Positions 11,107 to 31,448 of a DNA stretch of 64,000 bases are shown here, in pieces; positions within the stretch are counted from its first letter, which is position 1, and each line of letters starts with the position of its first letter. The notes under the pieces are model-generated. The model searched no databases. It saw nothing but the letters and a program-made list of their open reading frames with translations, and was not told the DNA's origin. The DNA lies in the NCBI GenBank assembly GCA_944322755.1, contig CALUPY010000007.1:23301-87300 (forward strand), in the 5' to 3' direction. The position numbers and the translations under genes were made by a program. This stretch comes from Candidatus Gastranaerophilales bacterium (GTDB lineage Bacteria > Cyanobacteriota > Vampirovibrionia > Gastranaerophilales > Gastranaerophilaceae).

Positions 11107-11117
11107 ATTTTACCTTC

Positions 11118-11813
11118 CTATCCGTTGCCTAATTGCTGGATTGCTCTTGAGAGATTACTGTTTTGGAGGACAAAAAGCTGTCTGTTGGCTTCAAAATTCC
11201 TTCTTATCGGAATCATCTGCAAAACTTCTTCCGACTGTGACACGTTTGAAAACTCATTGTAGCCCTGTTTTATATTCGGCTCCAACACTGCAACACCGTC
11301 AGTCGTTACAGTCGAGATAGTCGCTACATATTCAAGTTTTCCGGTACGCTTGTTCAAAACACGAATATCTCCGTTGTGATTAACTTTTACATCGGAAAGC
11401 TTTTCAGGCGTAAACGGCAATTTTATCGGTGTGCCGTCATTTGCAAGCACGTTAGCGTTTTCGAGGGTTAAAAGGTTTCCTTCGCCATCGAGTTTGAATC
11501 GTCCGTCACGTGTGAGCTTAATACCGTCCGGGCTTTTGTACTGGAAATAGCCTTTTGCTGCAATTGCTAAATCAAGCGGATTCTTTGTAACTGCGATCCT
11601 TCCGATTCTATCGTCTATTGCCGTTGACAGGCCATGAACGCCTATATATTCGGAAAACGAAGACACAACAGGGTCTTTTCGCTGGTATCCGACTTTGTCA
11701 AAACCGGTCATGTTTTCGTTTAAAATTCCGAAAAGCTCTGTCTGTAAATGCATTGCACGGATATTTACAGTCATTCCGTTTTCAAAAAAGTTTATTCCGC
11801 CGTTTAGTCTCAT
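11118..11813 (-). CDS. Flagellar rod/hook-basal body protein (FlgF/G-like)
   Basis: 231 residues from the ATG with GAGG six bases upstream; an ATG 21 bases earlier lacks such a site. The FlgE/F/G core is clear (LDLAIAAKGYFQYKSPDG, LTRDGRFKLDGEGNLLT), as is the C-terminal rod helix (IPIRRNFEANRQLFVLQ). The N-terminal rod motif is divergent (ILNENMTGFDKVGYQRK instead of ANNxANxxTxGYK). It heads the rod operon. It is probably the FlgF partner of the next gene. Confidence 0.8.
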   Translation of the reverse strand: MRLNGGINFFENGMTVNIRAMHLQTELFGILNENMTGFDKVGYQRKDPVVSSFSEYIGVHGLSTAIDDRIGRIAVTKNPLDLAIAAKGYFQYKSPDGIKLTRDGRFKLDGEGNLLTLENANVLANDGTPIKLPFTPEKLSDVKVNHNGDIRVLNKRTGKLEYVATISTVTTDGVAVLEPNIKQGYNEFSNVSQSEEVLQMIPIRRNFEANRQLFVLQNSNLSRAIQQLGNG

Positions 11814-11849
11814 TTTTTGCCTCTTATACTGCACAGTTATACATTAATG

Positions 11850-14968: not shown

Positions 14969-17140
14969 ATGGGAGAAAAATTGCTGGAAAAAGTGTTTTC
15001 GATAAAGAACGACAAAGACGGAAGACACAAAGTTGTAAGGGTTTTAGGTGCGAAGGTAAAACTCCAATATGATCACCAAAAAAGAGAAACACAAAAAGCA
15101 ATATTAGTACAGGATTCATACAACCTTAACTGTTATAATGCTGCAGACAAAATAGTTGTCTTCATTGAAATTGAACCTTATAGAATGTGTGGTGGTCAGA
15201 TGTCACTTTTTTCACTATGTAAATTTTCAAAAGAAATATTAGAGCCTTCTGTTCCTGTTTTAATTACAACTATGCCCGGCAAATATACTTATGCACATAA
15301 CAATAATTTCGAAAACAATTTAAATATTATGAGATGGGAACAAATTGCAAAAATAATTAAAAACAAGAAAGAAGTCATTTTACATATTCCTGAGGTTTGT
15401 ATAAAAAATCCAGAAACTGGAGAATTACTTTTTGATAGACTGACTGAACATGATTATGAAGTATTAAAGTCGATTGAAAAGTTGCAAATTAATATATTAA
15501 ATCAAAACATTGAGTTAATACCCGACAATGATATTTTAGATTCATTAAAAAAAATAACAGAAAACATAACCCAAACAGTAGCTCACGATAAGACCTGCAA
15601 TCAGTCATTAGCAAATAAATATAACATGCCGGTACATCTATTTTCAGGGTTTTATGAACTGCCCGATGTAAAAAAATATTCTTTATCAGAAAAAGAGAAT
15701 CTCATTTTATTTTCTCCTGATTTACCCACAAACGGACTTAAATACAAAGAAGAATTTATAAAAAAAATTATTAAATCATTTCCTAACTATAGAATAGAAA
15801 GAATCTTTGGATATAGTTTTGAAGATTATTGTGCATTAACGGCTCGCGCAAAATTTGTTATCTCTTTCGGAGAAGGTTTTGATGGCTATTTTAATAATTC
15901 ACCATTGCTTGGTACTATGGGTTTAGCTGTGTTCAACAGAAAATTTTTCCCTGATGATGGATGGTTACAGAATCCAAATGTTTATGATTCTTTTGAACAA
16001 ATGTCTGAAAAAATTGTTGCCGATATGAAGTATTATCTCGAAAATCCGGCAGAATATTATAGTGTTATTAAAAATCACCGAAGCAAGGTTTATTCTCTTT
16101 ATTCAAAAGAGAAAACAAAGAAAAAACTTAATGATTTTTATAATAAAAATTATGATTTTTTGCCATTTTTTGGCGAAGAGAAGCAGGATAATTTTGTAAA
16201 TTTAAATACAGGCATAATTGATTATTTGCCGAACAGTTTTAAGAACTATTTGTTAGAAAATAATATGCCAGAAAAAATAAATAAACTTAAAAGGAATCTC
16301 GACAAAAATTCACTTAAGGTCATTGATAGCTCTTTAAAAAAGATTCTCAATGTACCTGACTCACGATATTCAACGTTATATTTTGTCAAGAAAGAAGAAT
16401 TTGAGGCAGAATTTAAAGATAAAAATTCTATTTATGACAAAATTATGACCAATGATATGTATAATTTTTTTGCGGAGAATTATAAACTCTCAAAAATGGA
16501 TTATGATCTAGAAGTTCTCGTTTTTCATCATAGTCTAAAAGATACAACAGATAAGCTAAAAGAATATATAAAAAACAAGGACTATATTGATGCAGGTGCT
16601 TATATAGGAGATAGTGCTCTTGTTCTATTTCCATATCAACCACGAAAAATATATTCTTTTGAGATTTCCCCATATAATCTTGCAAAATATCAAAAGACTA
16701 TGGAATTAAATAATATAGAAACTGACAAATATGAATTGATTAATATGGGTTTGTCAGACAAAAATGATGTTATAAAAATTAAGGATTCAAAAGATGCAGG
16801 TGTTTCAGAATATTGTAGCTCAAATGATTGTATTGCTGTAAAGTTTATCCCCCTAGATAAATTTGTCTTTTTACATAGTTTAGAAGTAGGGTTTATTAAA
16901 GCTGATATAGAAGGCTCTGCTTTAAAAGCTTTAATGGGCATGACTAAAACAATTAAAACATTTCGTCCTGTACTGTCTTTGTCAATTTATCATTCACCAG
17001 AAGAATTTTTTGAAACAAAACCATATCTTGAAGAAATTGTAAGTGATCTAAATTATGAAATCGAAATAAGAAATGAAGTATCTTTGCCTGATAATCTTTT
17101 CGGGGTTACGGTTTTTGCATATCCTGCAGAACTTAAATAA
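14969..17140 (+). CDS. Glycosyltransferase-like protein fused to FkbM methyltransferase
   Basis: 723 residues. The N-terminal RVLGAKVKL pattern and a middle region (~240-370: LILFSPDLPTNG, ISFGEGFDGYFNNSPLLGTMG) resemble glycosyltransferase donor-binding halves, though the GT family is uncertain. The C-terminal ~190 residues are an FkbM-type SAM methyltransferase: YIDAGAYIGDSAL, YSFEISPYN, GFIKADIEGSALKALMGM. It likely elongates and O-methylates a surface glycan. The gene is visibly more AT-rich than its housekeeping neighbours, as is usual for exchanged polysaccharide genes. AGGGGAAG precedes the ATG. It leads the 15-28 kb cluster. Confidence 0.75.
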   Translation: MGEKLLEKVFSIKNDKDGRHKVVRVLGAKVKLQYDHQKRETQKAILVQDSYNLNCYNAADKIVVFIEIEPYRMCGGQMSLFSLCKFSKEILEPSVPVLITTMPGKYTYAHNNNFENNLNIMRWEQIAKIIKNKKEVILHIPEVCIKNPETGELLFDRLTEHDYEVLKSIEKLQINILNQNIELIPDNDILDSLKKITENITQTVAHDKTCNQSLANKYNMPVHLFSGFYELPDVKKYSLSEKENLILFSPDLPTNGLKYKEEFIKKIIKSFPNYRIERIFGYSFEDYCALTARAKFVISFGEGFDGYFNNSPLLGTMGLAVFNRKFFPDDGWLQNPNVYDSFEQMSEKIVADMKYYLENPAEYYSVIKNHRSKVYSLYSKEKTKKKLNDFYNKNYDFLPFFGEEKQDNFVNLNTGIIDYLPNSFKNYLLENNMPEKINKLKRNLDKNSLKVIDSSLKKILNVPDSRYSTLYFVKKEEFEAEFKDKNSIYDKIMTNDMYNFFAENYKLSKMDYDLEVLVFHHSLKDTTDKLKEYIKNKDYIDAGAYIGDSALVLFPYQPRKIYSFEISPYNLAKYQKTMELNNIETDKYELINMGLSDKNDVIKIKDSKDAGVSEYCSSNDCIAVKFIPLDKFVFLHSLEVGFIKADIEGSALKALMGMTKTIKTFRPVLSLSIYHSPEEFFETKPYLEEIVSDLNYEIEIRNEVSLPDNLFGVTVFAYPAELK

Positions 17141-17153
17141 AAAGGAAACAAAA

Positions 17154-17384
17154 ATGAACAAACAACAATTTTTAAATGACTTAGAAGACATATTACAAAG
17201 AGAAGAACCGTGTACAGAAAATGACAATCTTGATGAATATGAAGAATGGGATTCACTTTCTCAAATGTCACTTATTGCATATATGGACAGAACTTTTGGA
17301 GTCAAATTAGGTTTTGATAACTTTGAAAACGTAAAAACCGTCGCCGATTTAATAGAACTCGCCGGAGGAAAAATTGGAGATTAA
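17154..17384 (+). CDS. Acyl carrier protein (first copy)
   Basis: 76 residues from the ATG with AAAGGAAA upstream. Small acidic four-helix carrier with the phosphopantetheine attachment motif EEWDSLSQM, S34 being the modified serine. It is a dedicated carrier rather than the fatty-acid ACP, since it sits inside a glycan cluster. The 3' end overlaps the next gene by 11 bases, implying translational coupling with the following reductase. Confidence 0.85.
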   Translation: MNKQQFLNDLEDILQREEPCTENDNLDEYEEWDSLSQMSLIAYMDRTFGVKLGFDNFENVKTVADLIELAGGKIGD

Positions 17385-18117
17385 ATTTGATAAAGAGCAG
17401 CGTTTTATTGTCACAGGTGCAAGCTCAGGTATTGGGGAAAATACAGCATTAATGCTCAACAAGCTCGGAGCAACAGTAATTGCAATTGGAAGAAATAAGG
17501 AACGTTTACAGATGCTTGTTGAACAATCGTATTCTCCAGAAAATATGTTTACAGAACAAAAGGATTTGACTGAAGATATTCCTTCTCTACCCCAGTATGT
17601 AAAATCATTAAAAGACAAATACGGCAAATTCCAGGGGCTTGTTTATGGTGCAGGTATAGGTAAGGTGGAACCATTGCAAATGATTCAGTATCCTGAAGTA
17701 ATAAAAGAGTTTGAAACGAATTATTTTGCTCCGCTTTTTATGGCTAAAGGTTTTGCGGATAGACGCATAAATAATGGTTCAGGCAGCGCATGTGTATTTG
17801 TTTCATCAATTGCTTCTTTCTGTTCTGACAAAGGACATGTTGTATATGCCGGTTCAAAAGCAGCTCTTTCAGCTTCTGTAAAATCAATGGCAAAAGAATT
17901 AGCAAAAAACGGAGTAAGAATGAACTGCGTGTCTCCTTCTGCAGTCAATACACCAATGCTTGATGAACACAGCAGAAGTGAAGAACAGATGAAAAAATAT
18001 CCTTTTGGTATTGCAGAAACTGAAGATGTAAGCAATTTGATTGTTTATTTACTATCTGATAAAGCTAAATTTATCTCTGCACAAAACTATATAATCGATT
18101 CAGGTGGAGTGTCATAA
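17374..18117 (+). CDS. SDR-family oxidoreductase
   Basis: 247 residues, classical short-chain dehydrogenase: TGASSGIG nucleotide loop (14-21), S144/S145, catalytic Y158-x3-K162 and the SPSAVNTPM region. It starts with TTG; GGAGG six bases upstream inside the carrier-protein gene decides this. Likely reduces a 3-oxoacyl-carrier intermediate or a sugar keto group with NAD(P)H. It is sandwiched between a carrier protein and a NeuD-type acyltransferase with overlapping ends. Confidence 0.85.
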   Translation: MEIKFDKEQRFIVTGASSGIGENTALMLNKLGATVIAIGRNKERLQMLVEQSYSPENMFTEQKDLTEDIPSLPQYVKSLKDKYGKFQGLVYGAGIGKVEPLQMIQYPEVIKEFETNYFAPLFMAKGFADRRINNGSGSACVFVSSIASFCSDKGHVVYAGSKAALSASVKSMAKELAKNGVRMNCVSPSAVNTPMLDEHSRSEEQMKKYPFGIAETEDVSNLIVYLLSDKAKFISAQNYIIDSGGVS

Positions 18118-18764
18118 TGAAAAAAATCTATATAGTTGGCGGCGATGGATTCGCAAGAGAATGTTATATGTATTTATCTTCTATAATTGAAGAAGATAAA
18201 GATATTGAATTTGGCGGTTTTTTAGGGCACAACGGATATGGTGAAAATACAGATTTCAAAAAGCTTCAGCATTTGTACAAAGGAGATGTTTCTGAACATA
18301 AATTTGCAGATAACGAGTATGTAATTATCGGGGCAGGCATGCCCAAAATCAGAAAAATAATATATGAAGACCTAAAAAAACGCAATATAAAATTTTATAC
18401 ACTTATTTCAAAAAATTCTAAGATAAATGAGTTTGTAGAATATGGAGAGGCTAATATTTTTATATACTACGTTCCGTCTCCTGATGTAAAAATTGGCAAC
18501 GGCAATCTCTTTAACGGATATACAATTACCGGACATGATGTTGAAATCGGCGATTTCAACTTTTTGGCACCTAGAGCGCAAATTTTAGGCGGTGCGAAGA
18601 TTGGAAGTATGAACACAATCGGTGCTAATGCAATTCTTCTTCCGCATGCAAAAATCGGTGACAACAACAAAATTGCACCGCTCAGTGCCGTTTACAAAGG
18701 CTGTAAAAATAACTGCTATATGGCAGGCAATCCGGCATTAAAAATAGGAGATAACAATGCATAG
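18117..18764 (+). CDS. NeuD-family sugar O-/N-acyltransferase
   Basis: 215 residues. The N-terminal Rossmann-like part (KKIYIVGGDGFARECYMYL) and the C-terminal left-handed beta-helix of hexapeptide repeats (IGNGNLFNG, IGDFNFLAP, IGSMNTIGA, IGDNNKIAP, then MAGNPAL) are typical of the NeuD/PglD acetyltransferase family that decorates nonulosonic acids and aminosugars. The expected acyl donor is acetyl-CoA, but with carriers next door an acyl-ACP donor is possible (inference). Start and stop codons overlap both neighbours. Confidence 0.85.
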   Translation: MKKIYIVGGDGFARECYMYLSSIIEEDKDIEFGGFLGHNGYGENTDFKKLQHLYKGDVSEHKFADNEYVIIGAGMPKIRKIIYEDLKKRNIKFYTLISKNSKINEFVEYGEANIFIYYVPSPDVKIGNGNLFNGYTITGHDVEIGDFNFLAPRAQILGGAKIGSMNTIGANAILLPHAKIGDNNKIAPLSAVYKGCKNNCYMAGNPALKIGDNNA

Positions 18765-19905
18765 CTGCTTTAAAAATGCAAAAATATCAGCAATAGCGGC
18801 AGTGGTGCCGGAGGATGTAATCACAATTGACGATGAAATTGTGTTTTACAAAAATGACGAAAAACTCCTGCAGAGAAACAAAAAAATTCTCGGGCTCGGT
18901 AAGCGTCACATTGTTCCGGATGGCGTCACTAATGCTGATTTGTGCGAGGCTGCCGCAAATAGATTGATAACCGAACTCGGCGTTGAAAAAAATGAAATTG
19001 ATGCGTTGATAGTCGTTTCTTCCAGCCATGATTATATATATCCTGCATCAGCTTGTATATTGCAGGACAGGCTTGGACTTAGTGAAGATTGTGCTTGTTT
19101 TGATATATCCGGGCTGGCATGTTCTGCTTATGTATATGGATTGTGGAATGCTCATTCGCTTATACAAAGCGGGGCAGCAAAAAAATGCCTCTTGTTAGTT
19201 GGCGATACAGTGAGCAGGCACTCTGACAAAAGAAACAGAAATTCCAATATGCTTTTTGGCGATGCTGGCGTTGCGACACTGATTGAGTATACAGAGCACT
19301 CGATTCCATCGTATTTTATCCTTGGCACAAGAGGCAGCGGATGGAACAAAATCGTTGCGCCGGCAGGAGGTTCAAAATTGCCTATCCGGAAAGATATTGT
19401 TGATATTGAGATTACTGATAATAGAGACAATGTATGGCACCTTTGGGATGAAATTATGAAGGGGATGGATATTTTTAAATTTACAATGGAAGTCGCACCG
19501 AAGGGCATAGATGATATTCTAAAATTTTCAGGAAAAAACAAAGAAGAAATAGACTTTTTTGCTTTTCATCAGGCTAATAAACAAATCGTCGACAATATTG
19601 CAAAATACGTCCGTTTACCTAAAGATCAGTATTCGGCTGAAACCTTTACAAAATATGCAAACTGTGCAGCGGCATCTATTGCAACAAACATCTGCGATCA
19701 GCTTTGCGGTAAAAATCCGGAAAATGTTTTGCTTTCATCATTCGGAGTCGGGCTTTCATGGGGGTTTGCGCTTTTGAATATGAAAGATACTAAAAATCTG
19801 GGCATTGGCATTTACAAAACGCCTGATAAGCTTTTGACGCGTGAGGAGCTTGTGGAAAACTGGATAAGTTATTTTAAAGGAGAGATTGATGAGCTTCAAC
19901 TCTAA
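18757..19905 (+). CDS. 3-oxoacyl-ACP synthase III (KAS III-like)
   Basis: 382 residues, thiolase fold. The KAS III catalytic triad is complete: C122 (ISGLACSAYVYG), H271 (FAFHQANKQ) and N302 (YANCAAASIATN). It catalyses decarboxylative Claisen condensation of a starter acyl-CoA/ACP with malonyl-ACP. It is longer than housekeeping FabH (~320 residues), with an insertion and an extended C-terminus. That agrees with cluster-type KAS III enzymes that use unusual starters. It overlaps the NeuD-like gene and the next SDR. Confidence 0.9.
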   Translation: MHSCFKNAKISAIAAVVPEDVITIDDEIVFYKNDEKLLQRNKKILGLGKRHIVPDGVTNADLCEAAANRLITELGVEKNEIDALIVVSSSHDYIYPASACILQDRLGLSEDCACFDISGLACSAYVYGLWNAHSLIQSGAAKKCLLLVGDTVSRHSDKRNRNSNMLFGDAGVATLIEYTEHSIPSYFILGTRGSGWNKIVAPAGGSKLPIRKDIVDIEITDNRDNVWHLWDEIMKGMDIFKFTMEVAPKGIDDILKFSGKNKEEIDFFAFHQANKQIVDNIAKYVRLPKDQYSAETFTKYANCAAASIATNICDQLCGKNPENVLLSSFGVGLSWGFALLNMKDTKNLGIGIYKTPDKLLTREELVENWISYFKGEIDELQL

Positions 19906-20635
19906 AACAGTATTTATAACCGGTTCAAGACGTGGACTCGGGTGGGCAATGGCAGAAGAATTTGCGAAAAATGGGGCAAACATTATTGCTCATGCCAGAA
20001 CACAGACAGAAGAATTCTCTGAAAGATTACGAGAACTATCTGAAAATTATGGAGTTAACGTAAGCGCTTTGTATTTTGATTTAACAGATACAGAGATGAT
20101 GAAAGAAACTGTTAAGGATTTGATAATAAAACAGAAAACAAGAATAGACGTACTTGTCAATAATGCCGGTATTGCTCATGGCGGATATTTTCAAATGACA
20201 CCGGTTTCAGCAATAAGAGATGTTTTTAATATAAATCTATTTGCCCAGATGGAAATTACCCAGCTTGTATTAAAGTCTATGATTCGTAATAAATCTGGCG
20301 TCATTATAAATATGAGTTCGGTATTGGGGCTTGATATAAAAGAAGGCAGCTGTGCTTATGGTGTTTCAAAGGCTGCGATTGCTGCGTGGACAAAAACGCT
20401 TGCTGCTGAATGTGCGCCGTATGGTATTAGAGCAAATGCAATTGCTCCTGGACTTATTGATACAGATATGGCAAAGCTTATGGAAGAAAAAGCGGAGCAG
20501 GAAATGATATCATCTTCTGCAATGAACAGACTTGGCTGTCCTGCTGAAATTGCAAAAACAGCTCTTTTCCTTGCTTCAGACGATGCATCTTTTATAAACG
20601 GACAAGTTATCAGAGTCGACGGAGGGATTGTTTGA
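19889..20635 (+). CDS. SDR-family 3-oxoacyl-ACP reductase-like (FabG-like)
   Basis: 248 residues from the ATG following AAAGGAGAG. Classical SDR with TGSRRGLG (11-18), NNAG (91-94), S143/S144 and the Y157-x3-K161 active site. The sequence (INMSSVLG, YGVSKAAIAAWTKTLAAE, IAPGLIDTDM) is very FabG-like, so reduction of the KAS III product is the natural role. Its stop codon overlaps the ATG of the transketolase subunit (TGATG). Confidence 0.87.
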   Translation: MSFNSKTVFITGSRRGLGWAMAEEFAKNGANIIAHARTQTEEFSERLRELSENYGVNVSALYFDLTDTEMMKETVKDLIIKQKTRIDVLVNNAGIAHGGYFQMTPVSAIRDVFNINLFAQMEITQLVLKSMIRNKSGVIINMSSVLGLDIKEGSCAYGVSKAAIAAWTKTLAAECAPYGIRANAIAPGLIDTDMAKLMEEKAEQEMISSSAMNRLGCPAEIAKTALFLASDDASFINGQVIRVDGGIV

Positions 20636-21447
20636 TGACAAATTTAACAGAGCTATCCAAACAAATGAGAACTGACATGTTAAAAATGGCTTACTCTGTC
20701 GGTAAAACCGGTGCTCATATCGGTCCGTCTTTATCCCTGACAGAAATTATAGCTGTTTTATATTTTTCTGTAATGAATTTTGACCCCAAAAATCCGCAAA
20801 ACGACTCCAGAGACAGACTAATTCTCAGCAAAGGTCACGGAGTAATGGCGCAATACGCTGCAATGAAACAATTGGGCATGATTACTGACGAAGTTCTTTT
20901 GACCTTTAAAAAAAACGGTTCAAAATTATCTGCCCATCCGTCATTAAACAGAGAACTCGGCATTGAATTTTCATCGGGAAGCCTTGGACAGGGGCTGTCG
21001 CTTGGCGTCGGATGTGCACTGGCATTGAAGCGAAAAAAATCAAACTCCCGGGTTTTTGTAATTCTTGGCGACGGTGAATGCAATGAAGGTTCAATCTGGG
21101 AAGCTGCAATGTATGCATCTTATCAAAAATTGAACAACCTGACGGTTATTATTGATAAAAATAACATCCAGTACGATGATTTTACGGACAATATACTGTC
21201 TATGAATCCGCTGGATAAAAAATGGGAAAGCTTTGGCTTTGAAACGAAAACAGTAAACGGACACGACACTGAGCAGCTTATAAAAATACTAAATATGAAC
21301 GCTGAAAAACCGGTCGCTGTTATAGCAGAAACCATAAAAGGAAAGGGGGTTTCCTTTATGGAAAACAATCCTCAGTGGCACAACGGCATTTTGTCACAAG
21401 AATTGTACGAAAAAGCACTTGTTGAAATAGGAGGTGCAAATGCTTGA
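20635..21447 (+). CDS. Transketolase, N-terminal (TPP-binding) subunit
   Basis: 270 residues; the ATG overlaps the upstream stop, with GGAGGG in front. It carries the thiamine diphosphate and Mg site GDGECNEG (145-152) with N176/N177 (IDKNNIQYDD), plus LSKGHG. It corresponds to the first half of transketolase. The second half is the next gene, so the active site forms between two polypeptides. It should transfer a two-carbon ketol group to an aldehyde. Being inside an acyl-carrier/LuxC cluster rather than a pentose-phosphate operon, it probably acts on a non-standard aldehyde. Confidence 0.9.
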   Translation: MTNLTELSKQMRTDMLKMAYSVGKTGAHIGPSLSLTEIIAVLYFSVMNFDPKNPQNDSRDRLILSKGHGVMAQYAAMKQLGMITDEVLLTFKKNGSKLSAHPSLNRELGIEFSSGSLGQGLSLGVGCALALKRKKSNSRVFVILGDGECNEGSIWEAAMYASYQKLNNLTVIIDKNNIQYDDFTDNILSMNPLDKKWESFGFETKTVNGHDTEQLIKILNMNAEKPVAVIAETIKGKGVSFMENNPQWHNGILSQELYEKALVEIGGANA

Positions 21448-22408
21448 TATAACACCTCAAAATATAAGAATGTGGTCATTATTAGGTTCTTGCGGAGCTT
21501 TTGGCGCTGCTGCCGAGTCAGTGGTGCAAGAAAACTCTAATATAGTTATGCTTACAGCTGATTTATGCTCATTTGCTGGGCTAAGCAGATTTTCAAAAAT
21601 GTATCCTGATAATTTTTTCAATGTTGGTATTGCAGAACAAAATATGGTTGGTGTTGCCGGTGGAATGGCTAAGGAAGGATTGATACCTTTTGTTACAACT
21701 TATGCTACATTTGCCTCAATGAGAGCATTGGATCAGATTAAGGTAAATATGGGGTATATGAAATTGCCTGTAAAACTTGTCGGAATGACTGCTGGGCTGT
21801 CTGTTGGCATTTTAGGAGCAACACATATAAGTATCGAAGATATAGCTGCTATTCGTTCAATCCCGAATATATGTATACTTTCACCGGCGGATTCTCTAGA
21901 AACAGTGAAATGTGTTGAGGCTGCTGTTCAAATAGCCGGACCGGTATATCTTCGTCTTTCAGGTTCTATGAATAATCCCCCTGTATACAAAGCTGATTAT
22001 GATTTTGTTGCAGGTAAAGCAATCACTCTAAAAGATGGAGAGGATATAACTATTATTGCAACCGGCACAATGGTTCATAACTCATTGAGGGCAGCAAAAT
22101 TGTTGAAGGAAAAAGGCATATCAGCAAAGGTCGTTAATATGCATACTCTAAAACCACTCGATGTAGATGCTGTAAAATCAGCATGTTCGAGTAAAATGAT
22201 AATTACAGTCGAAGAACATTCGGTAATTGGCGGGCTTGGAGGTGCTGTTGCAGAAGTACTGGCTGGTATTGAAAAGAAACCTGAACACTTGATTATTGGG
22301 GTTTCTGATTCTTACAAACCGGCAGGAGAGTATAAATACCTTCTTGAACAGTACGGGCTATTGCCTGAACAAATAGCTGAAAAAATTGAACAAAATTACA
22401 AAAAATAA
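21440..22408 (+). CDS. Transketolase, C-terminal subunit
   Basis: 322 residues from the ATG after ATAGGAGG, overlapping the N-terminal subunit by eight bases. It has the pyrimidine-binding transketolase half (NVGIAEQNMVGVAGGMAKEG with the conserved Glu, TYATFASMRALDQI) and the C-terminal domain (VNMHTLKPLD, VEEHSVIGGLG). Together with the previous gene it makes a complete two-subunit enzyme of the type also seen in O-antigen and branched-sugar clusters. Confidence 0.9.
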   Translation: MLDITPQNIRMWSLLGSCGAFGAAAESVVQENSNIVMLTADLCSFAGLSRFSKMYPDNFFNVGIAEQNMVGVAGGMAKEGLIPFVTTYATFASMRALDQIKVNMGYMKLPVKLVGMTAGLSVGILGATHISIEDIAAIRSIPNICILSPADSLETVKCVEAAVQIAGPVYLRLSGSMNNPPVYKADYDFVAGKAITLKDGEDITIIATGTMVHNSLRAAKLLKEKGISAKVVNMHTLKPLDVDAVKSACSSKMIITVEEHSVIGGLGGAVAEVLAGIEKKPEHLIIGVSDSYKPAGEYKYLLEQYGLLPEQIAEKIEQNYKK

Positions 22409-22422
22409 AGGAGAAAAATAAA

Positions 22423-22662
22423 ATGACAACATTAGAAGCGTATACAAAGGCATTCACTGATACATTCGGTATTACTGATGAAGAGGCAAAAAATCTGAAA
22501 TTTCAGGATATAAAGGCATGGGATTCTGTGGGTCACATGGGTTTGATTTCAGCAATCGAAGAAGCTTTTGATATCATGATGGAAACAGACGACATTATTG
22601 ATTTAAGTTCATTTGAAAAGGGCAAAGAAATCCTCAAAAGATATGATGTTGAAATTAAATAA
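22423..22662 (+). CDS. Acyl carrier protein (second copy)
   Basis: 79 residues, AAAGGAG in front. Four-helix acidic carrier with the attachment motif KAWDSVGHMGL, S35 modified. It differs clearly from the first copy, so the two probably serve different loading enzymes. Position suggests pairing with the AMP ligase that follows after a 219-base gap containing no recognisable gene. Confidence 0.85.
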   Translation: MTTLEAYTKAFTDTFGITDEEAKNLKFQDIKAWDSVGHMGLISAIEEAFDIMMETDDIIDLSSFEKGKEILKRYDVEIK

Positions 22663-22881
22663 GTTTTAATAGATTTACCCAGACACAGCAGGCCTTTTTG
22701 TTTATGTGATGTCAATGAGGACAGAGTATTGAATGCATCCAGCTATTAAATCATTTTTTAGTGTTCACCTAGAAATGCAATCAATACAAAGTCAATATAT
22801 TAATCACAAAAAAACAAATTGGTCTGGCTGTTCGGTAAATCCATCAACGCCAAAAGCTGCAAAATCAGGGAATCTTGTATA

Positions 22882-24294
22882 ATGATATGGAACTTAAATA
22901 ATTTTAAAAATAATACAGCAGTAATCACCGAAAACGGTCAAAAAATCACATACGAAGAACTTGACAGGTATTGCCGCTCGCTGACAGATATAATCGGCAA
23001 GCGCTGTCTTGTTTTCAATCTTTGCCGCAATGAAATCGGCTCACTGGTCGGCTACATTGGATTTTTAAATGCCGGTATTGTACCTGTTATGCTCAAAGCG
23101 GATTTAGATTCTGAGCTTTTGCAAGAATGCATAGATACGTACAAACCGGATTATTTGAATGTTCCGTCAGAAATGGCAGAAGAATTTACGGACTGCAAAG
23201 AAGTCTATAAAAATCTCGGCTACAGCTTGCTAAAAACGAAGTATGAGAATGTTTTTGAGCTAAACGATGAACTGGCGCTTCTTTTAACAACATCTGGCTC
23301 AACCGGCAGCCCGAAACTTGTCAGACAGAGTTACAAAAATATTGAAGCAAACACAAAATCTATTGCGGAATACTTAAACCTCGATGAAACAGAGCGTGCA
23401 ATCACTACCTTGCCGATGAATTACACATACGGTATTTCTATTATAAATACACATCTTTGGATAGGCGCATGCCTGATTCTGACGGAAAAAGGGCTTATGC
23501 AAAAAGATTTCTGGCAGCAGCTTAAAGAGCATAACGCAACCTCTTTCGGCGGAGTTCCATACACTTATGAAATGCTTGAGCGTCTGAGATTTTTCAGGAT
23601 GGATTTGCCGTCATTGCGGTATGTAACACAGGCAGGCGGAAAGCTTTCACCGGATTTGCACGAAAAATTTGCAAAATGGGCACTTGAAAAAAACAAAAAG
23701 TTTATTGTTATGTATGGACAAACAGAAGCTACAGCAAGAATGTCCTACCTTCCTGCAGAAAAATCACTCGAAAAATACGGCAGTATGGGTATTGCAATCC
23801 CAGGCGGTAAATTTTCGCTGATTGATGTGAACGGAGCTGAAATTACAACGCCGGAGACTGTAGGCGAGCTTGTTTATGAAGGTGACAATGTCACTTTAGG
23901 CTATGCTCAATGCGGAGATGACCTAAAAAAAGGAGACGAAAGAGGAGGACGGCTTGTCACCGGAGATATGGCAAAATTTGATAAAGACGGATTTTTCTAT
24001 ATTGTCGGACGAAAAAAACGTTTCTTAAAAATTTTTGGCAACCGCGTAAATCTTGATGAAAGCGAAAGATTAATAAAAAGCAATTTTGACAACATTGACT
24101 GTGCTTGCTGCGGTAAAGATGACAGTATGTGTATATTTTTGACAGACAGCAGCTATAATGAGCGGGTTTTAAATTTTATGACCCTTAAAACAGGGTTAAA
24201 CCGAGCCGCATTTAGGATTCAAGACATAGAAGAAATCCCGAAAAACGAAGCCGGAAAAACGTTGTATAAAGCGCTGGAACAGTATTATGCTTAA
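22882..24294 (+). CDS. AMP-binding acyl/aminoacyl ligase
   Basis: 470 residues, ANL superfamily. P-loop TTSGSTGSPK (~135-144), YGQTEAT and a C-terminal GRKKRFLKIFGNRVNLDE hinge motif are present. It activates a carboxylate as an adenylate and should pass it to a pantetheine thiol, most likely the carrier encoded just upstream. Resemblance to D-alanine-carrier ligase (DltA)/amino-acid-activating enzymes of glycan loci is possible but not provable here. Sequence in frame upstream of MIWNLNN lacks a ribosome site, so the ATG was chosen. It overlaps the next gene by eight bases. Confidence 0.83.
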   Translation: MIWNLNNFKNNTAVITENGQKITYEELDRYCRSLTDIIGKRCLVFNLCRNEIGSLVGYIGFLNAGIVPVMLKADLDSELLQECIDTYKPDYLNVPSEMAEEFTDCKEVYKNLGYSLLKTKYENVFELNDELALLLTTSGSTGSPKLVRQSYKNIEANTKSIAEYLNLDETERAITTLPMNYTYGISIINTHLWIGACLILTEKGLMQKDFWQQLKEHNATSFGGVPYTYEMLERLRFFRMDLPSLRYVTQAGGKLSPDLHEKFAKWALEKNKKFIVMYGQTEATARMSYLPAEKSLEKYGSMGIAIPGGKFSLIDVNGAEITTPETVGELVYEGDNVTLGYAQCGDDLKKGDERGGRLVTGDMAKFDKDGFFYIVGRKKRFLKIFGNRVNLDESERLIKSNFDNIDCACCGKDDSMCIFLTDSSYNERVLNFMTLKTGLNRAAFRIQDIEEIPKNEAGKTLYKALEQYYA

Positions 24295-24883
24295 AGAAGA
24301 AACAAAGATATGTAAAATGCCTGCAAATGCAGATAATGAAATAAATATGCAAAAAGACGGATACTTTTTTGCAGACAGGACTTTACTTGCATCGATAAAT
24401 CTATCCAGATTTGCAATAGACACGAAAAAACTCATCAGGTTGAATATTGTCAACACAAAAGAACACAAGGAAGAAATTTTTGAAGTTGCAAGAAAGTCTT
24501 TCCCTTATGACAGACGCTTTCATCTGACGCCTGAAATAGATAACGCTACGGCTGAGACTGAAATAAAAAAATGGGTTGAAAATCTCGACGATGTACTGGT
24601 TTGTATCTATAAGGATAAAGTTATAGGATTTCTTGCGCTAAAGGAAACCGATGATGAGACACTTTTTGTGCATCTTGCTGCTGTTGATGAAAAATACAGA
24701 TTGACAGGGGCTGCAATGTCTTTATATGCAAGAGCGGTAGAAATTGCAAAAGAGAAGGGGTACAAAAAACTAGACGGGAGAATAAGCTCTCAAAATACAG
24801 CGGTTATGAATCTATACGCCTATCTTGGCGCTTCTTTCTCAGACCCTGAAGATATATTTATTAAAGGAAAAATTGATGAGTAA
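24287..24883 (+). CDS. GNAT-family N-acetyltransferase
   Basis: 198 residues. The C-terminal ~110 residues form the GNAT fold: VIGFLALKE, LFVHLAAVDEKYRLTGAAMSLYARAVEIAKEKG (acetyl-CoA loop region) and SSQNTAVMNLYAYLGAS. It is similar in pattern to WecD-type aminosugar acetyltransferases. Within this cluster it likely acetylates an amino group on the sugar or acyl product. It is coupled by overlap to the ligase and to the LuxE homologue. Confidence 0.82.
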   Translation: MLKEETKICKMPANADNEINMQKDGYFFADRTLLASINLSRFAIDTKKLIRLNIVNTKEHKEEIFEVARKSFPYDRRFHLTPEIDNATAETEIKKWVENLDDVLVCIYKDKVIGFLALKETDDETLFVHLAAVDEKYRLTGAAMSLYARAVEIAKEKGYKKLDGRISSQNTAVMNLYAYLGASFSDPEDIFIKGKIDE

Positions 24884-25955
24884 CTTGGAAAAACTGTTTG
24901 AAATAGAACCATACAGTCTAAATAAAGAAGAAAAAGAAAAAATGCTTTCGGAAGAACTCGGCAGATTAACGGAATTTCATTATAACAACTGTCCTGAGTA
25001 CAAAAAGATACTCGACAGACTCGGATATGATGTAACAAAAACACATACAACAGAAGAACTTCCGTTTATTCCTGTCAGATTGTTCAAATTCTATGACCTT
25101 ATGAGCTGCCCCAAAGATGATATTGTAAAAACAATGACATCTTCCGGCACCTCCGGACAGGCTGTTTCAAAGATTTATCTGAGTGCGCAAAACACAAAAA
25201 ATCAGTCAAAAACTCTTACGGAGATTATCACTTCATTCATCGGAAAACAGCGGCTTCCGTTGCTTCTTTTGGATACGGAGATGGTAAAAAAAGACCGCTC
25301 AATGTTTTCCGCCCGCGGCGCCGGCATAATAGGTTTTTCTATGTTCGGGCGTGATACGGTTTATGCTCTCGATTCTGATATGAACCTTGATTTTGACAAA
25401 GTGGCTGCATTTCTTGAAAAACACAAAGACGAACCGATTCTTATGTTCGGATACACCTACATGATATGGCAGTTTGTCGTAAAAGAGCTGAAAAAACGAG
25501 GCGTAAATTTTAATATAAAAAACGGTATCCTGTTTCATATAGGCGGCTGGAAAAAGCTTAAAGATGAGGCAGTAGACGTATTTACCTACAATAAGACAAT
25601 AAATGATGTAATGGGCAGTGTAAAAGTCTACAATTATTACGGCATGGCAGAGCAGCTAGGGTCTGTTTTTGTTCAGTGTGAACACGGACACATGCACTGC
25701 TCAAATTATTCAGATATTATCACCCGTCATCCGTATGACTTTACGCCCTGCAAGTTTGGCGAGAAAGGTATTATACAGCTTTTATCGGTACTGCCGGAGT
25801 CTTACCCCGGTCATTCCCTCCTGACAGAAGACGAAGGGGTTGTACTCGGTGAAGATGATTGTGCGTGCGGAAGAAAGGGCAAATACTTTGAAATAAAAGG
25901 TAGAATAAAAAATGCAGAAATAAGAGGATGTTCAGATACTTATGAGCGGCGTTAG
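24876..25955 (+). CDS. luxE: LuxE-family acyl-protein synthetase
   Basis: 359 residues from the ATG with AAAGGA. It is homologous to the LuxE subunit of bioluminescence fatty-acid reductase: the ATP-binding loop SSGTSG (89-94), YGMAEQLGSVFVQCE, and the C-terminal GRIKNAEIRGCSD. There the near-terminal Cys is the position of the acyl-carrying cysteine in LuxE (my recollection of the family). LuxE activates an acid as acyl-AMP and hands the acyl group to LuxC. There are no luciferase genes, so this is a repurposed acid reductase in a glycan cluster. Confidence 0.88.
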   Translation: MSNLEKLFEIEPYSLNKEEKEKMLSEELGRLTEFHYNNCPEYKKILDRLGYDVTKTHTTEELPFIPVRLFKFYDLMSCPKDDIVKTMTSSGTSGQAVSKIYLSAQNTKNQSKTLTEIITSFIGKQRLPLLLLDTEMVKKDRSMFSARGAGIIGFSMFGRDTVYALDSDMNLDFDKVAAFLEKHKDEPILMFGYTYMIWQFVVKELKKRGVNFNIKNGILFHIGGWKKLKDEAVDVFTYNKTINDVMGSVKVYNYYGMAEQLGSVFVQCEHGHMHCSNYSDIITRHPYDFTPCKFGEKGIIQLLSVLPESYPGHSLLTEDEGVVLGEDDCACGRKGKYFEIKGRIKNAEIRGCSDTYERR

Positions 25956-27117
25956 ATACTTAATTGGAAATGAAAATATACTAAACTTACCAATGGCGAC
26001 TTTATGCGATGAGGTTTGTGATTTTTTAAATGACCTGTCTAAAGAAATTTTAGGCTCGCAGGCAGGGCGGCTTTACCCGGATTTGTCGGCATTGGCGTTC
26101 TGGTGCAGAAAAGCAAATATCCAAAAAATAAAAGAAACCGCACCGGTTAAAACAAACAGACTTGGAAGAGGGCTTTGTTTTCACATTGCACCCTCAAATA
26201 TACCGGTCAATTTTGCGTTCTCATACGGATTCTCCCTGCTTGCCGGCAACGCAAACATAGTCCGGATACCGAGCAAGGATTTTCCTCAAGTGGACGCTCT
26301 TGTTGAAATATTCAAAAAAGTATTAGAAAAATATCCAAAAATTAAGGATAGGACAGCTTTTGTAAAATACGACAGAACATCTGATGCAACAGCCGTATTT
26401 TCAAAAATAGCGGATGCCAGAATGATTTGGGGCGGGGATAATACAATAAAGACCGTAAAGTCCTGCGAAACAAAACCGCGCTGTATAGATATTGCATTTG
26501 CAGACAGGTATTCTGTGTGCATAATAGACGGACAGAGTATTTTAGAAGCTGATGAAAACTCAATAGAGAGACTTGCTCAAAACTTTTATAACGACACGTA
26601 TCTGATGGACCAAAACGCTTGTTCTTCTCCGCAGCTTATATACTGGCAAAACGATAGCGAACAAGCCCGCGAGAAATTCTGGAATGCTGTTTACAAGACA
26701 GCAAAAGAAAAATACGTTCTGCAAGATGCAGTATGTGTGGACAAATACACAAAATTCTGCGAGGACGCAATAGACTATTCAGACAAAATAAAATCCGTAA
26801 AACATTCAGAAAACCTCTTGTACAGAAGTGAAATAACTGCACCTGATAAAGATATAGAAAATCTTAGGGGCAAAGCCGGATACTTTTACGAGTACTCACT
26901 AAAGGATATAGGAGAGCTATTCTCTGTGGTGGATGAAAAGTATCAGACCGTCACTTATTATGGAATAGATGCACAAAAGCTTGCAAAAGATATAGTCTTG
27001 CATGAATTGCGCGGTATAGACAGAATCGTTCCAATCGGAAAAGCTATGGACATAGACGTTATCTGGGACGGATACGACCTGTTGACGCAGCTATCGAGGA
27101 TAATAGATGTACGTTGA
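25942..27117 (+). CDS. luxC: LuxC-family acyl-CoA reductase
   Basis: 391 residues. Family signature LMDQNACSSPQ gives the nucleophile C227; the aldehyde-dehydrogenase-like fold is supported by FHIAPSNIPVNFAFSYGFSLLAGNANIVR and MIWGGDNTIK. LuxC reduces an acyl thioester to an aldehyde with NADPH. It overlaps luxE by 14 bases and the next dehydrogenase by 11, so the three are translationally coupled. The aldehyde would be a natural acceptor for the split transketolase upstream (inference). Confidence 0.9.
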   Translation: MSGVRYLIGNENILNLPMATLCDEVCDFLNDLSKEILGSQAGRLYPDLSALAFWCRKANIQKIKETAPVKTNRLGRGLCFHIAPSNIPVNFAFSYGFSLLAGNANIVRIPSKDFPQVDALVEIFKKVLEKYPKIKDRTAFVKYDRTSDATAVFSKIADARMIWGGDNTIKTVKSCETKPRCIDIAFADRYSVCIIDGQSILEADENSIERLAQNFYNDTYLMDQNACSSPQLIYWQNDSEQAREKFWNAVYKTAKEKYVLQDAVCVDKYTKFCEDAIDYSDKIKSVKHSENLLYRSEITAPDKDIENLRGKAGYFYEYSLKDIGELFSVVDEKYQTVTYYGIDAQKLAKDIVLHELRGIDRIVPIGKAMDIDVIWDGYDLLTQLSRIIDVR

Positions 27118-28012
27118 AAAAAGTCAAAGAAAAATTTCCATAATCGGCACAGGCGCTGTAGGGTCGGCAATAGCCTACGCAATTATGATGCGGGGGCTTG
27201 CTGATAAAATTGTTTTGATTGATACAAATAAAAAGCTTGCAAATGCAGAACTGCTGGATATAAAACACGGACTGCATAATATACCCTGCGCAGAACTTGT
27301 CAGCGGTGACTATTCAGACATAGAAGACAGCTCGATTATTATTGTTACGGCAGGCAGAAGCCGGAGAGAAGGTGAAAGCAGGCTGGACTTAGCACAGGAC
27401 AATATAAAAATTGCTGCAAAAATAGCAGAAAATATAAAAACTTATTACAACACAGGTGTTGTAATTGTAGTCTCAAACCCGGTAGACGTAATCACTTACT
27501 ATATGACAAAGCACCTTAATCTCGAAAAGGGCAAGGTTTTTGGCACGGGTTGCATGCTGGATTCTTCGAGATTATCCGCTATATTGACGGATTACCTCGG
27601 CAAAAACGTTGAGATTCCTGTTATAGGAGAGCACGGAAACTCGCAGATTCCGTTGTGGAGTGCAATAGGGGAATGTGGTTTGAGCGAGTCACAAAAAGCC
27701 GCAATGGAAGACAATGTGCGTTCAATGGGTGCAGAAATTATTGCAGGCAAGGGTAAAACTTTTTTCGGAATAGCTACTTGTGTAGCTGTGCTTACAGAGA
27801 CAATAATTAAAAATAAACCGACAAAACTCTGCATTTCAACCGTATTAAATGGAGAATACGGTATTAAAGATGCCGCATTAAGTGTACCTTGTATTGTAGA
27901 TTCAATAGGGGTTAAAATTATCGAGAATTTAAATCTTTCATCCAAAGAACTCATGTTTTTACAAAAAACAGCTAGAGCTATATACACAACAACATCTATT
28001 CATCAAGAATAA
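27107..28012 (+). CDS. L-2-hydroxyacid dehydrogenase (lactate/malate family)
   Basis: 301 residues. NAD motif GTGAVGSA (14-21), D40, R92, R155, D152 and H176 (IGEHGN) are all in place. At the substrate-specificity position, where lactate dehydrogenases have Gln102 and malate dehydrogenases Arg, this protein has R86 (AGRSRREGESR). That argues against plain lactate dehydrogenase and suggests a dicarboxylate or another 2-oxoacid, although the surrounding GESRLDL resembles LDH. It is the last gene of the cluster and overlaps the 3' end of the convergent carbonic anhydrase gene by 17 bases. Confidence 0.87.
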   Translation: MYVEKSQRKISIIGTGAVGSAIAYAIMMRGLADKIVLIDTNKKLANAELLDIKHGLHNIPCAELVSGDYSDIEDSSIIIVTAGRSRREGESRLDLAQDNIKIAAKIAENIKTYYNTGVVIVVSNPVDVITYYMTKHLNLEKGKVFGTGCMLDSSRLSAILTDYLGKNVEIPVIGEHGNSQIPLWSAIGECGLSESQKAAMEDNVRSMGAEIIAGKGKTFFGIATCVAVLTETIIKNKPTKLCISTVLNGEYGIKDAALSVPCIVDSIGVKIIENLNLSSKELMFLQKTARAIYTTTSIHQE

Positions 28013-28571
28013 CAATCTCGCCGGTATCGAATTTGAAATAAGCCCTGACAATCTCCAGTTTTCCGTTTGCATAAGCTTTTCTAAGAATCTCCGAACGTTT
28101 TAAGAGCTTTCTTTTTTTTACGAGTGTGTAATCCCGGGCAAGCTCATTGTAGCATTTAGTTTTGTTATCAATAATTTCATAGACCGATTTTATTAACAGC
28201 TTAAAGACTGAGGGTTCTTCAGGGTAAGAACTTTTTGCCGCCTTCATAACTCCGCAGTCATCATGACTCATCACAACGACTAAGGGCACTTTTAAATGGT
28301 CAACAGCATATTCTACGCTCTCCAGTATGTTCGGTCCAATAACTGCACCGGCGCCTCTTACGACAAATAAATCGCCAATACCTTTGTCAAAAATAAACTC
28401 AGGCACAACTCTGGAATCGGAACAAGTAACAATACAAGCTATGGGAGATTGCCCATGCCGGTTTGCGACCAGTGCCTTCACATCTCTGTTCTGTGCCTCT
28501 GATTTTCCGTTTACAAAATTTTTGTTTCCTTCTATAAGAATATCCAGAGCCCGTTTTGCTTTTTCGTTCAT
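27996..28571 (-). CDS. Beta-class carbonic anhydrase
   Basis: 191 residues from the ATG with GGGG upstream. Zinc ligands C50, H103 and C106 with D52 in CSDSR, plus VRGAGAV and MSHDDCG, are all conserved. It hydrates CO2 to bicarbonate in the cytoplasm. The C-terminal third has a basic linker (VKKRKLLKRSE). Monocistronic; convergent with the dehydrogenase that ends the glycan cluster. Confidence 0.92.
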   Translation of the reverse strand: MNEKAKRALDILIEGNKNFVNGKSEAQNRDVKALVANRHGQSPIACIVTCSDSRVVPEFIFDKGIGDLFVVRGAGAVIGPNILESVEYAVDHLKVPLVVVMSHDDCGVMKAAKSSYPEEPSVFKLLIKSVYEIIDNKTKCYNELARDYTLVKKRKLLKRSEILRKAYANGKLEIVRAYFKFDTGEIVILDE

Positions 28572-28633
28572 TTTACCCCCTGACTTTATTATTGATAATA
28601 CCATATTTTATTCTGTTTCAAAATAATAAGATA

Positions 28634-30875: not shown

Positions 30876-31448
30876 ATGGTTTCAGGTATAGGCAGTGTTA
30901 CTGACTATTCTGCTATTAGCAGTTTAAATATTTTACAGAACACAGACCAGACCAACTCAGCAGAAGACACCTTCATTGATATTCTGGCAGATGCAGAGGG
31001 CGATGATAGTGACTCTGAATCATCAAAAGTATCAGAAACTTCTGAAAAAGACTTTGAAAAATCCGATTTGTATCAATATATAAAAGACTCGATGGGCATG
31101 CCCGCCGGTGTAAATGTAGAGGGTTTTGAATATACCCAAAGTTCGGATTCTGCAGCACAGGCAGCCTCTGACTCTGCTGAATCAAGCGGTTCCGGAAACG
31201 GTGAAAGCCAGACACAGTATGACGAAATGGATTTAAATAAAGACGGTGTTGTTACTGCTGATGAGATAATGCAGTATATGCAGCAACAGCAAAAAAACCA
31301 GCTTTCAGAAACAATTCAAAATTCATTGAACAAATATTCTCCTGACAATATTATGGGAGGACTGAATACAATAAATGCGTCAAATGCATATAGTAATACC
31401 TTAACTTCTATATCGGGCAGCGCAATGACGCTAAACATTGCGGTCTAG
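30876..31448 (+). CDS. Acidic protein with single EF-hand
   Basis: 190 residues. Unrecognised apart from one canonical EF-hand calcium loop, DLNKDGVVTADE (~124-135), with all liganding positions filled. The first half is Ser/Asp/Glu-rich low complexity (EGDDSDSESSKVSE, SDSAESSGSGNG), followed after the EF-hand by a Gln-run (QYMQQQQKNQ). There is no signal peptide. AGGAGAG precedes the ATG. A single EF-hand with disordered flanks is common in secreted or surface proteins; location here is unknown. Confidence 0.7.
   Translation: MVSGIGSVTDYSAISSLNILQNTDQTNSAEDTFIDILADAEGDDSDSESSKVSETSEKDFEKSDLYQYIKDSMGMPAGVNVEGFEYTQSSDSAAQAASDSAESSGSGNGESQTQYDEMDLNKDGVVTADEIMQYMQQQQKNQLSETIQNSLNKYSPDNIMGGLNTINASNAYSNTLTSISGSAMTLNIAV

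Follow-up and report, generated by a model that had tools for sequence, protein, structure and literature searches.

What could a bacterium make with a gene cluster that sets acyl carriers, LuxE, LuxC and a split transketolase among glycan genes? The question is raised by a 64,000-nucleotide stretch of contig CALUPY010000007.1 from a Candidatus Gastranaerophilales bacterium (positions 23,301 to 87,300, forward strand; the window below), whose genome is assembled as 2.19 Mb in 43 contigs. The cluster, 14 genes at window positions 14969-28012, consists of separable modules: a constant core of carrier, AMP ligase, LuxE and LuxC, usually with FabG and the split transketolase. We are evenly divided on whether this core gene set makes an unusual short polyhydroxy acyl group that would be attached to an amino sugar of a surface glycan; the acid is left open. 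The genes, identified with Pfam and NCBIfam, form one tight co-directional run on the plus strand and are listed below with a gene upstream that may be part of the system.

14969..17140, plus strand: GT-B-fold protein (residues 1-400, likely a glycosyltransferase) fused to an FkbM methyltransferase (about residues 539-697); Pfam/NCBIfam FkbM, AlphaFold, Foldseek
17154..17384, plus strand: acyl carrier protein 1 (ACP1), carrier of the optional KAS III module; PP-binding, Ser34 in 24/24 aligned
17374..18117, plus strand: SDR1 (short-chain dehydrogenase/reductase), likely beta-ketoacyl reductase of the KAS III module; adh_short
18117..18764, plus strand: NeuD-type hexapeptide acyltransferase; Hexapep, TIGR03570 at 119 bits, below the cut-off of 160.8
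18757..19905, plus strand: KAS III; Pfam/NCBIfam, conserved triad
19886..20635, plus strand: FabG-like SDR, paired with the transketolase; Pfam/NCBIfam, Ser/Tyr/Lys in 70/70 ungapped
20632..21447, plus strand: transketolase N chain, thiamine diphosphate binding; PF00456, 124.8 bits
21434..22408, plus strand: transketolase C chain, with a remodelled acceptor site by residue tests; PF02779/PF02780
22423..22662, plus strand: ACP2, carrier of the core cassette; no Pfam match, weak NCBIfam ACP match (22 bits), Ser35 in 68/68 aligned
22819..24294, plus strand: AMP ligase, likely an acyl-ACP2 synthetase, likely start ATG 22882; AMP-binding, 157.9 bits, Lys480 in 70/70 ungapped
24287..24883, plus strand: GNAT, likely a sugar N-acyltransferase; PF00583, model pLDDT 91.7
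24825..25955, plus strand: LuxE acyl-protein synthetase, likely start ATG 24876; PF04443, 186.6 bits, C-terminal Cys in 81/81
25942..27117, plus strand: LuxC acyl reductase; PF05893, 105.2 bits, C227 in 78/78
27107..28012, plus strand: LDH/MDH-family dehydrogenase with a malate-type specificity Arg; PF00056/PF02866
13539..14753, plus strand: iron-containing alcohol dehydrogenase, upstream, a possible part; PF00465

With the listed starts, or the likely ATG starts of ACP1 (17154) and LuxE (24876), genes overlap by 1-20 bases at 10 of the 13 junctions. The gaps are 13 bp before ACP1, 14 bp before ACP2 and 156 bp before the AMP ligase; the last becomes 219 bp if that gene starts at ATG 22882, the point at which the match to a sister genome starts again. 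An earlier note on this DNA had described about 14 plus-strand genes overlapping by 1-17 bases. The genes are present, their domain identities match Pfam and NCBIfam, and the packing is as tight as stated, with the range of overlaps corrected as above.

We surveyed related loci with LuxC as bait. Relatives are encoded by 173 of 210 pattern-matched stretches from a species-level genome collection; the best 80 loci were kept, and their six-frame open reading frames were searched with 16 window proteins. Gene content was counted in 47 well-covered loci, those with at least 5 kb before and at least 4 kb after LuxE/LuxC. Names for the neighbours (DegT, NeuB, cytidylyltransferase, nucleotidyltransferase, GT2, LegB-like epimerase, ALS-like, FabZ, radical SAM and MBL-fold) come from scanning a single member of each sequence cluster. 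The core is nearly constant: LuxE in 47 loci, the AMP ligase in 45, ACP2 in 45 and LuxC in 44, the last figure counting LuxC as a separate best label, since LuxC was the bait and is fused to LuxE in other loci. FabG (40) and the transketolase pair (35) are the usual companions, and KAS III (22), DegT aminotransferase (22), GNAT (21), NeuB (12) and the MDH-like gene (5) are variable. Over all 80 loci, LuxE and LuxC are adjacent in 73, the two transketolase chains in 47, ACP2 and the AMP ligase in 46, and FabG and the N chain in 37. The order of blocks differs among loci; ACP2-AMP ligase-(GNAT)-LuxE-LuxC and FabG-N chain-C chain mostly travel as units. LuxE is fused to LuxC in 5 loci and FabG to the N chain in one (L059), and we count these fusions as support because they join successive steps of the pathway proposed below. 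The records span Gastranaerophilales, Alphaproteobacteria, Spirochaetia, Lachnospiraceae, Helicobacter, Synergistaceae, Planctomycetaceae, Acidobacteriaceae, Myxococcota, SAR324, Elusimicrobia, one archaeon (without transketolase) and others. The earlier note had named a neighbourhood search as a check on whether these genes are conserved together; the search did not refute its proposal, and the core genes stay linked in many phyla.

The survey did alter the proposed logic. In the earlier note, KAS III and FabG build a chain on the ACPs, LuxE and LuxC reduce it, and the resulting aldehyde is lengthened by the transketolase into a ketose or acyl sugar. All the parts for this linear route stand in one run here, and the KAS III triad given in that note, C122/H271/N302, is correct, intact and conserved (37/37, 39/39 and 40/40 ungapped). 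However, KAS III is absent from 25 of the 47 well-covered loci, which keep the LuxE/LuxC core, and it follows ACP1 and SDR1: ACP1 is present in 16/22 loci with KAS III and 0/25 without it, and SDR1 in 18/22 and 1/25. In the sister genome G174 (locus L005), KAS III, ACP1 and SDR1 were not found in the cluster, yet its DNA from AMP ligase to LDH (22882-27918) is 93% identical to the window. Because KAS III is optional and travels with its own carrier and reductase, a single chain-building line is not supported; the 25 core loci without KAS III rule it out as a general logic, and we regard it as an improbable account of the cluster. KAS III, ACP1, SDR1 and the NeuD-type protein are more likely a separate optional module for a 3-hydroxybutyryl-type substituent, in which KAS III would start an acetoacetyl/3-hydroxybutyryl-type chain on ACP1.

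What enters the core instead is suggested by LuxE and LuxC. LuxE enzymes are acylated on a cysteine; the C-terminal Cys of LuxE is conserved in 81/81 sequences, and C227 of LuxC, correctly named in the earlier note, in 78/78. The LuxC profile matches a solved reductase (7xc6, E 3.2e-8). LuxE forms acyl-AMP from a free acid, according to the accessible part of a study of the V. cholerae system (PMC4772473), and no carrier-built chain is therefore needed upstream of it. The two enzymes thus stand as an acid-to-aldehyde pair, as first proposed, with plausible chemistry and without the carrier-built chain as input; that they make an aldehyde is very probable. The acid need not be short. The flagellin islands of Enterobacteriaceae and Aeromonas, which hold ACP, FabG, AMP ligase, LuxE and LuxC, are interpreted in the accessible text as liposugar genes (PMC4875605, PMC7874193), and the LuxE and LuxC family names agree with a route in which fatty acids are reduced and the lipid enters the glycan. 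Such a route is rather unlikely here: Pfam detected neither a LuxD-type thioesterase nor a luciferase (luxA/luxB) domain among the 14 cluster proteins, the cluster dehydrogenase is malate-type, and the related V. cholerae system works on a C4 acid, as far as the available text describes it.

The transketolase pair, subject of one of two sharp residue tests, bears on what may happen to the aldehyde. We compared 50 cassette C chains (the window's and 49 others) using E. coli residue numbering. The catalytic Glu and H473 are kept in 50/50, whereas equivalents of H461, D469 and R520 are kept in 0/50. In contrast, all 13 housekeeping transketolases of the family, including this genome's own (L001), keep both the motif TH..(G)EDG.(S/T)H and the Arg after it. 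Of 7971 database homologues, the 120 best-listed all show the change, as does the window itself (121/121), and a C chain on a clover-rhizobium plasmid shows the same loss. In the N chain, His29 is found in 51/52, His69 in 50/52 and His250 in 51/51. We take H461, D469 and R520 to bind the sugar phosphate and the alpha-hydroxyl of the acceptor, and the roles of the Glu and H473 are likewise assumed. Given the loss of these binding residues, the acceptor aldehyde is expected to be unphosphorylated and to lack an alpha-hydroxyl; malate 4-semialdehyde would fit. Compared with the features of EC 2.2.1.1, the pair has the catalytic Glu and a largely kept thiamine diphosphate site and lacks the residues that recognise sugar phosphate and alpha-hydroxyl, and this simple residue signature may define a transketolase subfamily. 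It is highly improbable that the pair is an ordinary pentose-phosphate enzyme located here by chance. Pfam and NCBIfam do rank it with transketolases, but the genome encodes a second, housekeeping split transketolase elsewhere (L001), the recognition residues separate cassette from housekeeping chains, and the linkage to the cassette extends across phyla. Transfer of a ketol by the split transketolase onto the LuxC aldehyde, a step already in the earlier note, is plausible chemistry and fits the residue pattern, and we consider it probable that the pair extends this aldehyde.

The last gene bears on the entry acid. Gln at position 102 marks lactate-type and Arg malate-type enzymes of the LDH/MDH family. 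The position is Arg in 9/9 cassette copies (window plus 8 loci) and Gln in 12/12 non-cassette enzymes of the order, taken from the 12 best-scoring loci among 42 matching genomes. The gene product, previously described as an L-2-hydroxyacid dehydrogenase, does belong to this family and is malate-type, not lactate-type, at its specificity residue, which disfavours lactate as the entry acid. Its gene is the genome's only PF00056 match. Six genomes in our sample of the order bear LuxC, and in 4 of them the dehydrogenase gene directly follows it. The nearest solved relative, 1y6j, was deposited as a lactate dehydrogenase and also has Arg in the specificity loop, so this residue alone does not prove the substrate. 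Malate is our tentative choice of entry acid, at less than even odds. The iron-containing alcohol dehydrogenase lies upstream of the cluster in two genomes of the same genus (92-94% amino acid identity) and occurs in only 2/80 loci; the common reductase of the loci is FabG.

These observations can be arranged in a six-step pathway. The LDH/MDH-like enzyme would supply a 2-hydroxy diacid such as L-malate, consistent with its specificity residue. LuxE would adenylate one carboxyl and hold the acyl group on its conserved C-terminal Cys, from which LuxC, judging from its conserved residues, would reduce and release it as an aldehyde. The split transketolase would then add a two-carbon ketol to this unphosphorylated aldehyde lacking an alpha-hydroxyl, as the residue loss suggests, and FabG would reduce the ketol. 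The AMP ligase would load the remaining carboxyl onto ACP2, and the WecD-like GNAT would transfer the acyl group to an amino group. ACP and AMP ligase stand side by side here and LuxE/LuxC carry both catalytic Cys, as in a tetronate-type pathway, and reloading of the extended product by ligase and ACP2 is a probable step. The GNAT model superimposes best by Z score on WecD (2fs5; Z 18.3, 2.1 A, 176 aligned), which is third by Foldseek E-value, and N-acylation of a sugar is its probable function. The residue tests, together with the V. cholerae tetronate and azinomycin precedents discussed below, support the sequence from hydroxy acid to aldehyde, two-carbon extension, reduction, carrier and N-acylation. 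Our best reading of the cluster is a tetronate-type hydroxyacyl pathway extended by an aldehyde-lengthening transketolase, and we would not be surprised to see it either upheld or overturned.

Several observations weigh against this pathway. The R358 equivalent is retained in 36/50 cassette transketolases (Cys in the window), and in two cassette C chains an Asp stands one residue ahead of the missing D469. In the N chain, H102 is kept in 42/51 and D147 in 44/51 ungapped, Asn replacing the latter in 7; the site that is Asn178 in the window varies freely. LuxE and LuxC occur without the transketolase pair in 12 of the 47 well-covered loci, and LuxC could in principle act on the product at the end of the pathway, not at its start. 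The MDH-like gene is found in only 8/80 related loci, so malate may be a local choice. Finally, a Pfam scan of 42 window proteins detected no DegT-type aminotransferase. The genome does have strong matches to DegT and NeuB, on other contigs, and the sugar acceptor is accordingly not fixed. On contig 4 of the source genome (G000), a DegT aminotransferase (L145, 7843-9036) lies 1.5 and 2.5 kb from MotB and MotA genes, respectively; it is a possible source of the amino-sugar acceptor.

The setting in a surface glycan, as the earlier note had it, is supported by the GT-B/FkbM, NeuD-type and WecD-like GNAT genes here and by DegT, LegB-like, NeuB, cytidylyltransferase and glycosyltransferase neighbours at other loci. 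The first gene, noted before as glycosyltransferase/FkbM, does encode both domains, in a single fused protein of 723 amino acids. Residues 41-400 are modelled by AlphaFold with a pLDDT of 85-98 by blocks of ten, and their Foldseek matches are GT-B enzymes, mostly glycosyltransferases and also UDP-GlcNAc 2-epimerases. No solved relative of the protein was found by sequence profile (best E 0.097, unrelated). The GT-B-fold domain (14969-16170, residues 1-400) has no Pfam name and is likely an unnamed glycosyltransferase family; its 61 database homologues are alone (about 400 amino acids) or combined with FkbM, radical-SAM, GT2, hexapeptide or rhamnan-synthesis domains, a few matching over short stretches. 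It is also conceivable that the product of the cassette ends up in a secreted small molecule or a lipid and not in a glycan, given that the same transketolase chemistry serves an antibiotic pathway in azinomycin, as far as the accessible text goes (PMC9570651). We think this unlikely in view of the glycan-type proteins in the window, the DegT, epimerase, NeuB, cytidylyltransferase or glycosyltransferase genes beside many copies (one representative per cluster scanned), and the exopolysaccharide-type genes that adjoin a copy in Deinococcus.

Judged by LuxC, the closest relatives with a name belong to Candidatus Gastranaerophilales (L005, 97% across the full length of the protein). A close LuxC (E <= 1e-40) was found in 6 of 192 genomes of the order and flagellin in 74 of 192; five of the six, three of them from one genus, have a flagellin match, and G178 has none. 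A role confined to flagella is not supported, since G178 has LuxC without a flagellin match and one copy lies beside exopolysaccharide-type genes. The flagellin matches listed for the source genome lie on other contigs than the cluster. Flagellin-N matches number 10 in G000 and 19 in G174, several in reading frames of 160-190 or more than 600 amino acids, a flagellin-like expansion in the source genus.

The modules appear to be exchanged. Over FabG and the two transketolase chains, G174 is only 44-47% identical to the window. A second genome, G133 (L007; L149), is 96-100% identical at 19078-20577 (KAS III end and FabG) and 97-100% at 21478-22377 (C chain), with 75-78% in the N chain and 59-90% in other 300-base windows. 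This patchwork suggests that modules have recombined; a chimera from metagenome assembly is a possible alternative. Among plasmid records we found 15 relatives, 10 in Rhizobium. One of these, a clover rhizobium, carries on a large plasmid (L153, NZ_CP098804.1) the transketolase pair together with a hexapeptide transferase, a carrier-like protein, an AMP ligase, a glycosyltransferase, DegT, a LuxE-like ligase (42% identical to window LuxE), LuxC, an SDR and FabZ. A Deinococcus plasmid has ACP, SDR, AMP ligase, LuxE, LuxC and acetyltransferase genes behind exopolysaccharide-type genes, and a Ponticoccus plasmid has LuxC with a divergent ACP-SDR-AMP ligase-LuxE run; neither has a transketolase. 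A phage origin was rejected, with no LuxC-like match in 50,697 phage records.

Among the 47 loci, the transketolase pair goes with FabG (33/35 versus 7/12 without the pair, p = 0.008) and against DegT (13/35 versus 9/12, p = 0.042), NeuB (5/35 versus 7/12, p = 0.005) and an ALS-like enzyme (1/35 versus 4/12, p = 0.012; Fisher tests). For FabZ, KAS III, GNAT, MBL, LDH and AMP ligase, p exceeded 0.1 in each case. Exchange of the transketolase for ALS-like or NeuB proteins is only a lead, because the loci are related, several tests were run, L083 holds both transketolase and ALS-like genes, and NeuB may serve nonulosonate synthesis. Six loci without a split transketolase (L008, L013, L035, L049, L058 and L072) carry an ALS-like enzyme with FabZ and NeuB in the cassette, five of them with an MBL-fold protein as well; this set is possibly an alternative carboligase module. 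More speculatively, the cassettes may form a modular acyl code for surface glycans that bacteria trade among themselves. LuxE and LuxC would be its invariable opening, giving an aldehyde from a small acid; the carboligase, whether a remodelled split transketolase, an ALS-like enzyme or a NeuB-type aldolase, would be interchangeable and determine the extension, after which the group would go to a dedicated carrier and on to an amino sugar. We find this idea attractive and somewhat doubtful.

Upstream of the cluster, besides the iron-containing alcohol dehydrogenase, are genes for a GlmS-like SIS protein and FlgF/G-like flagellar proteins (10390-11834); downstream are a carbonic anhydrase, RuvC and MtnA. 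The carbonic anhydrase gene (27996-28604, minus strand, PF00484) and the dehydrogenase gene converge, and their ends share 17 bases. A Ser/Asp-rich protein of 190 amino acids at 30876-31448, with a DxNxDG..E stretch that is EF-hand-like by eye, has neither a Pfam nor an NCBIfam match, and a second 190-residue reading frame at 31556-32128 gave none in a Pfam scan. A polysaccharide pyruvyl transferase at 42151-43257, beside a PfkB kinase, is a second surface-polysaccharide function in the window.

If the proposed pathway is right, carboxylate reduction would be joined to thiamine-dependent carbon-carbon bond formation in glycan decoration, and genes printed as "fatty acid biosynthesis" in flagellin islands would become a concrete, testable pathway. 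Malate and the transketolase would give a 3-deoxyhexonoyl amide, whose residue of C6H10O5 (162.05 Da) would be taken for a hexose in glycoproteomics. LuxC-type proteins are abundant in public genomes and metagenomes (7393 at E <= 0.001 among 7997 candidates scored), so unknown glycan substituents, perhaps misread as hexoses, may be common. The Aeromonas AH-3 flagellin glycan ends, in the account available to us, in an unexplained unit of 102 Da. This would be the residue mass of a dihydroxybutanoyl group, and the pathway offers a candidate explanation for it.

Among known systems, one parallel is the flagellar locus of Dickeya zeae. The accessible text lists LuxC, LuxE, FadD, two transketolases, FabG and ACP beside fliC, a nearly identical parts list with no mechanism given; the set is called unlikely to serve flagellar biogenesis (PMC4522980) or described as fatty-acid and sugar genes (PMC7575072). 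No KAS III, GNAT or MDH-like gene is named there, and its VioA and RfbC are absent from our cluster. The statement in the earlier note that no system with all these parts had been described is thus too broad for most of the set, which is in print for Dickeya, and holds for KAS III: in the accessible portions of open-access papers we found neither KAS III together with this gene set nor a printed mechanism joining LuxE/LuxC to a transketolase. The Aeromonas group II and Enterobacteriaceae islands differ in that the word transketolase is absent from both texts (PMC7874193, PMC4875605).

Canonical and split transketolases are of the same family as the cassette pair (by sequence, the closest solved structure is the Carboxydothermus C chain 6yaj, at 248.9 bits) and share its largely kept thiamine diphosphate and catalytic residues, whereas the acceptor-recognition His, Asp and Arg are replaced here. 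Bacterial luciferase LuxC and LuxE have both Cys residues in common with the cluster, which is without a LuxD, luxA or luxB domain and likely acts on a short hydroxy acid. As to the tetronate genes of V. cholerae, to our knowledge they include no transketolase, and a tetronate-type pathway presumably uses an alcohol dehydrogenase to reduce an aldehyde to the alcohol. RfbN is also reported to have a LuxC part, and Morona 1995 is said to give roles to the other rfb genes.

The azinomycin enzymes AziC3/C4 and AziC5/C6 share the conversion of a carboxylate to an unphosphorylated semialdehyde and its extension by a two-gene transketolase, AziC5/C6 lengthening a glutamate-derived semialdehyde by two carbons (PMC9570651). 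By that partial account, likened by description, the aldehyde is made by a kinase and reductase and not by LuxE/LuxC, and the product is an antibiotic amino acid and not a glycan group. The V. cholerae O1 rfbKLMNO/wbe genes share with our cluster a carrier, an AMP ligase for a short hydroxy acid, a LuxE-domain protein and an acyl group on the amino groups of a surface sugar. In the portions available, RfbN has a LuxE domain (PMC4772473), RfbL activates 2,4-dihydroxybutanoate and putatively loads it onto CoA or the carrier RfbK (PMC12208996), and the perosamine amino groups bear tetronate (PMC3441752). Likened by description and not by sequence, our cluster differs in adding a carbon-carbon bond-forming step, the FabG partner and the optional KAS III module.

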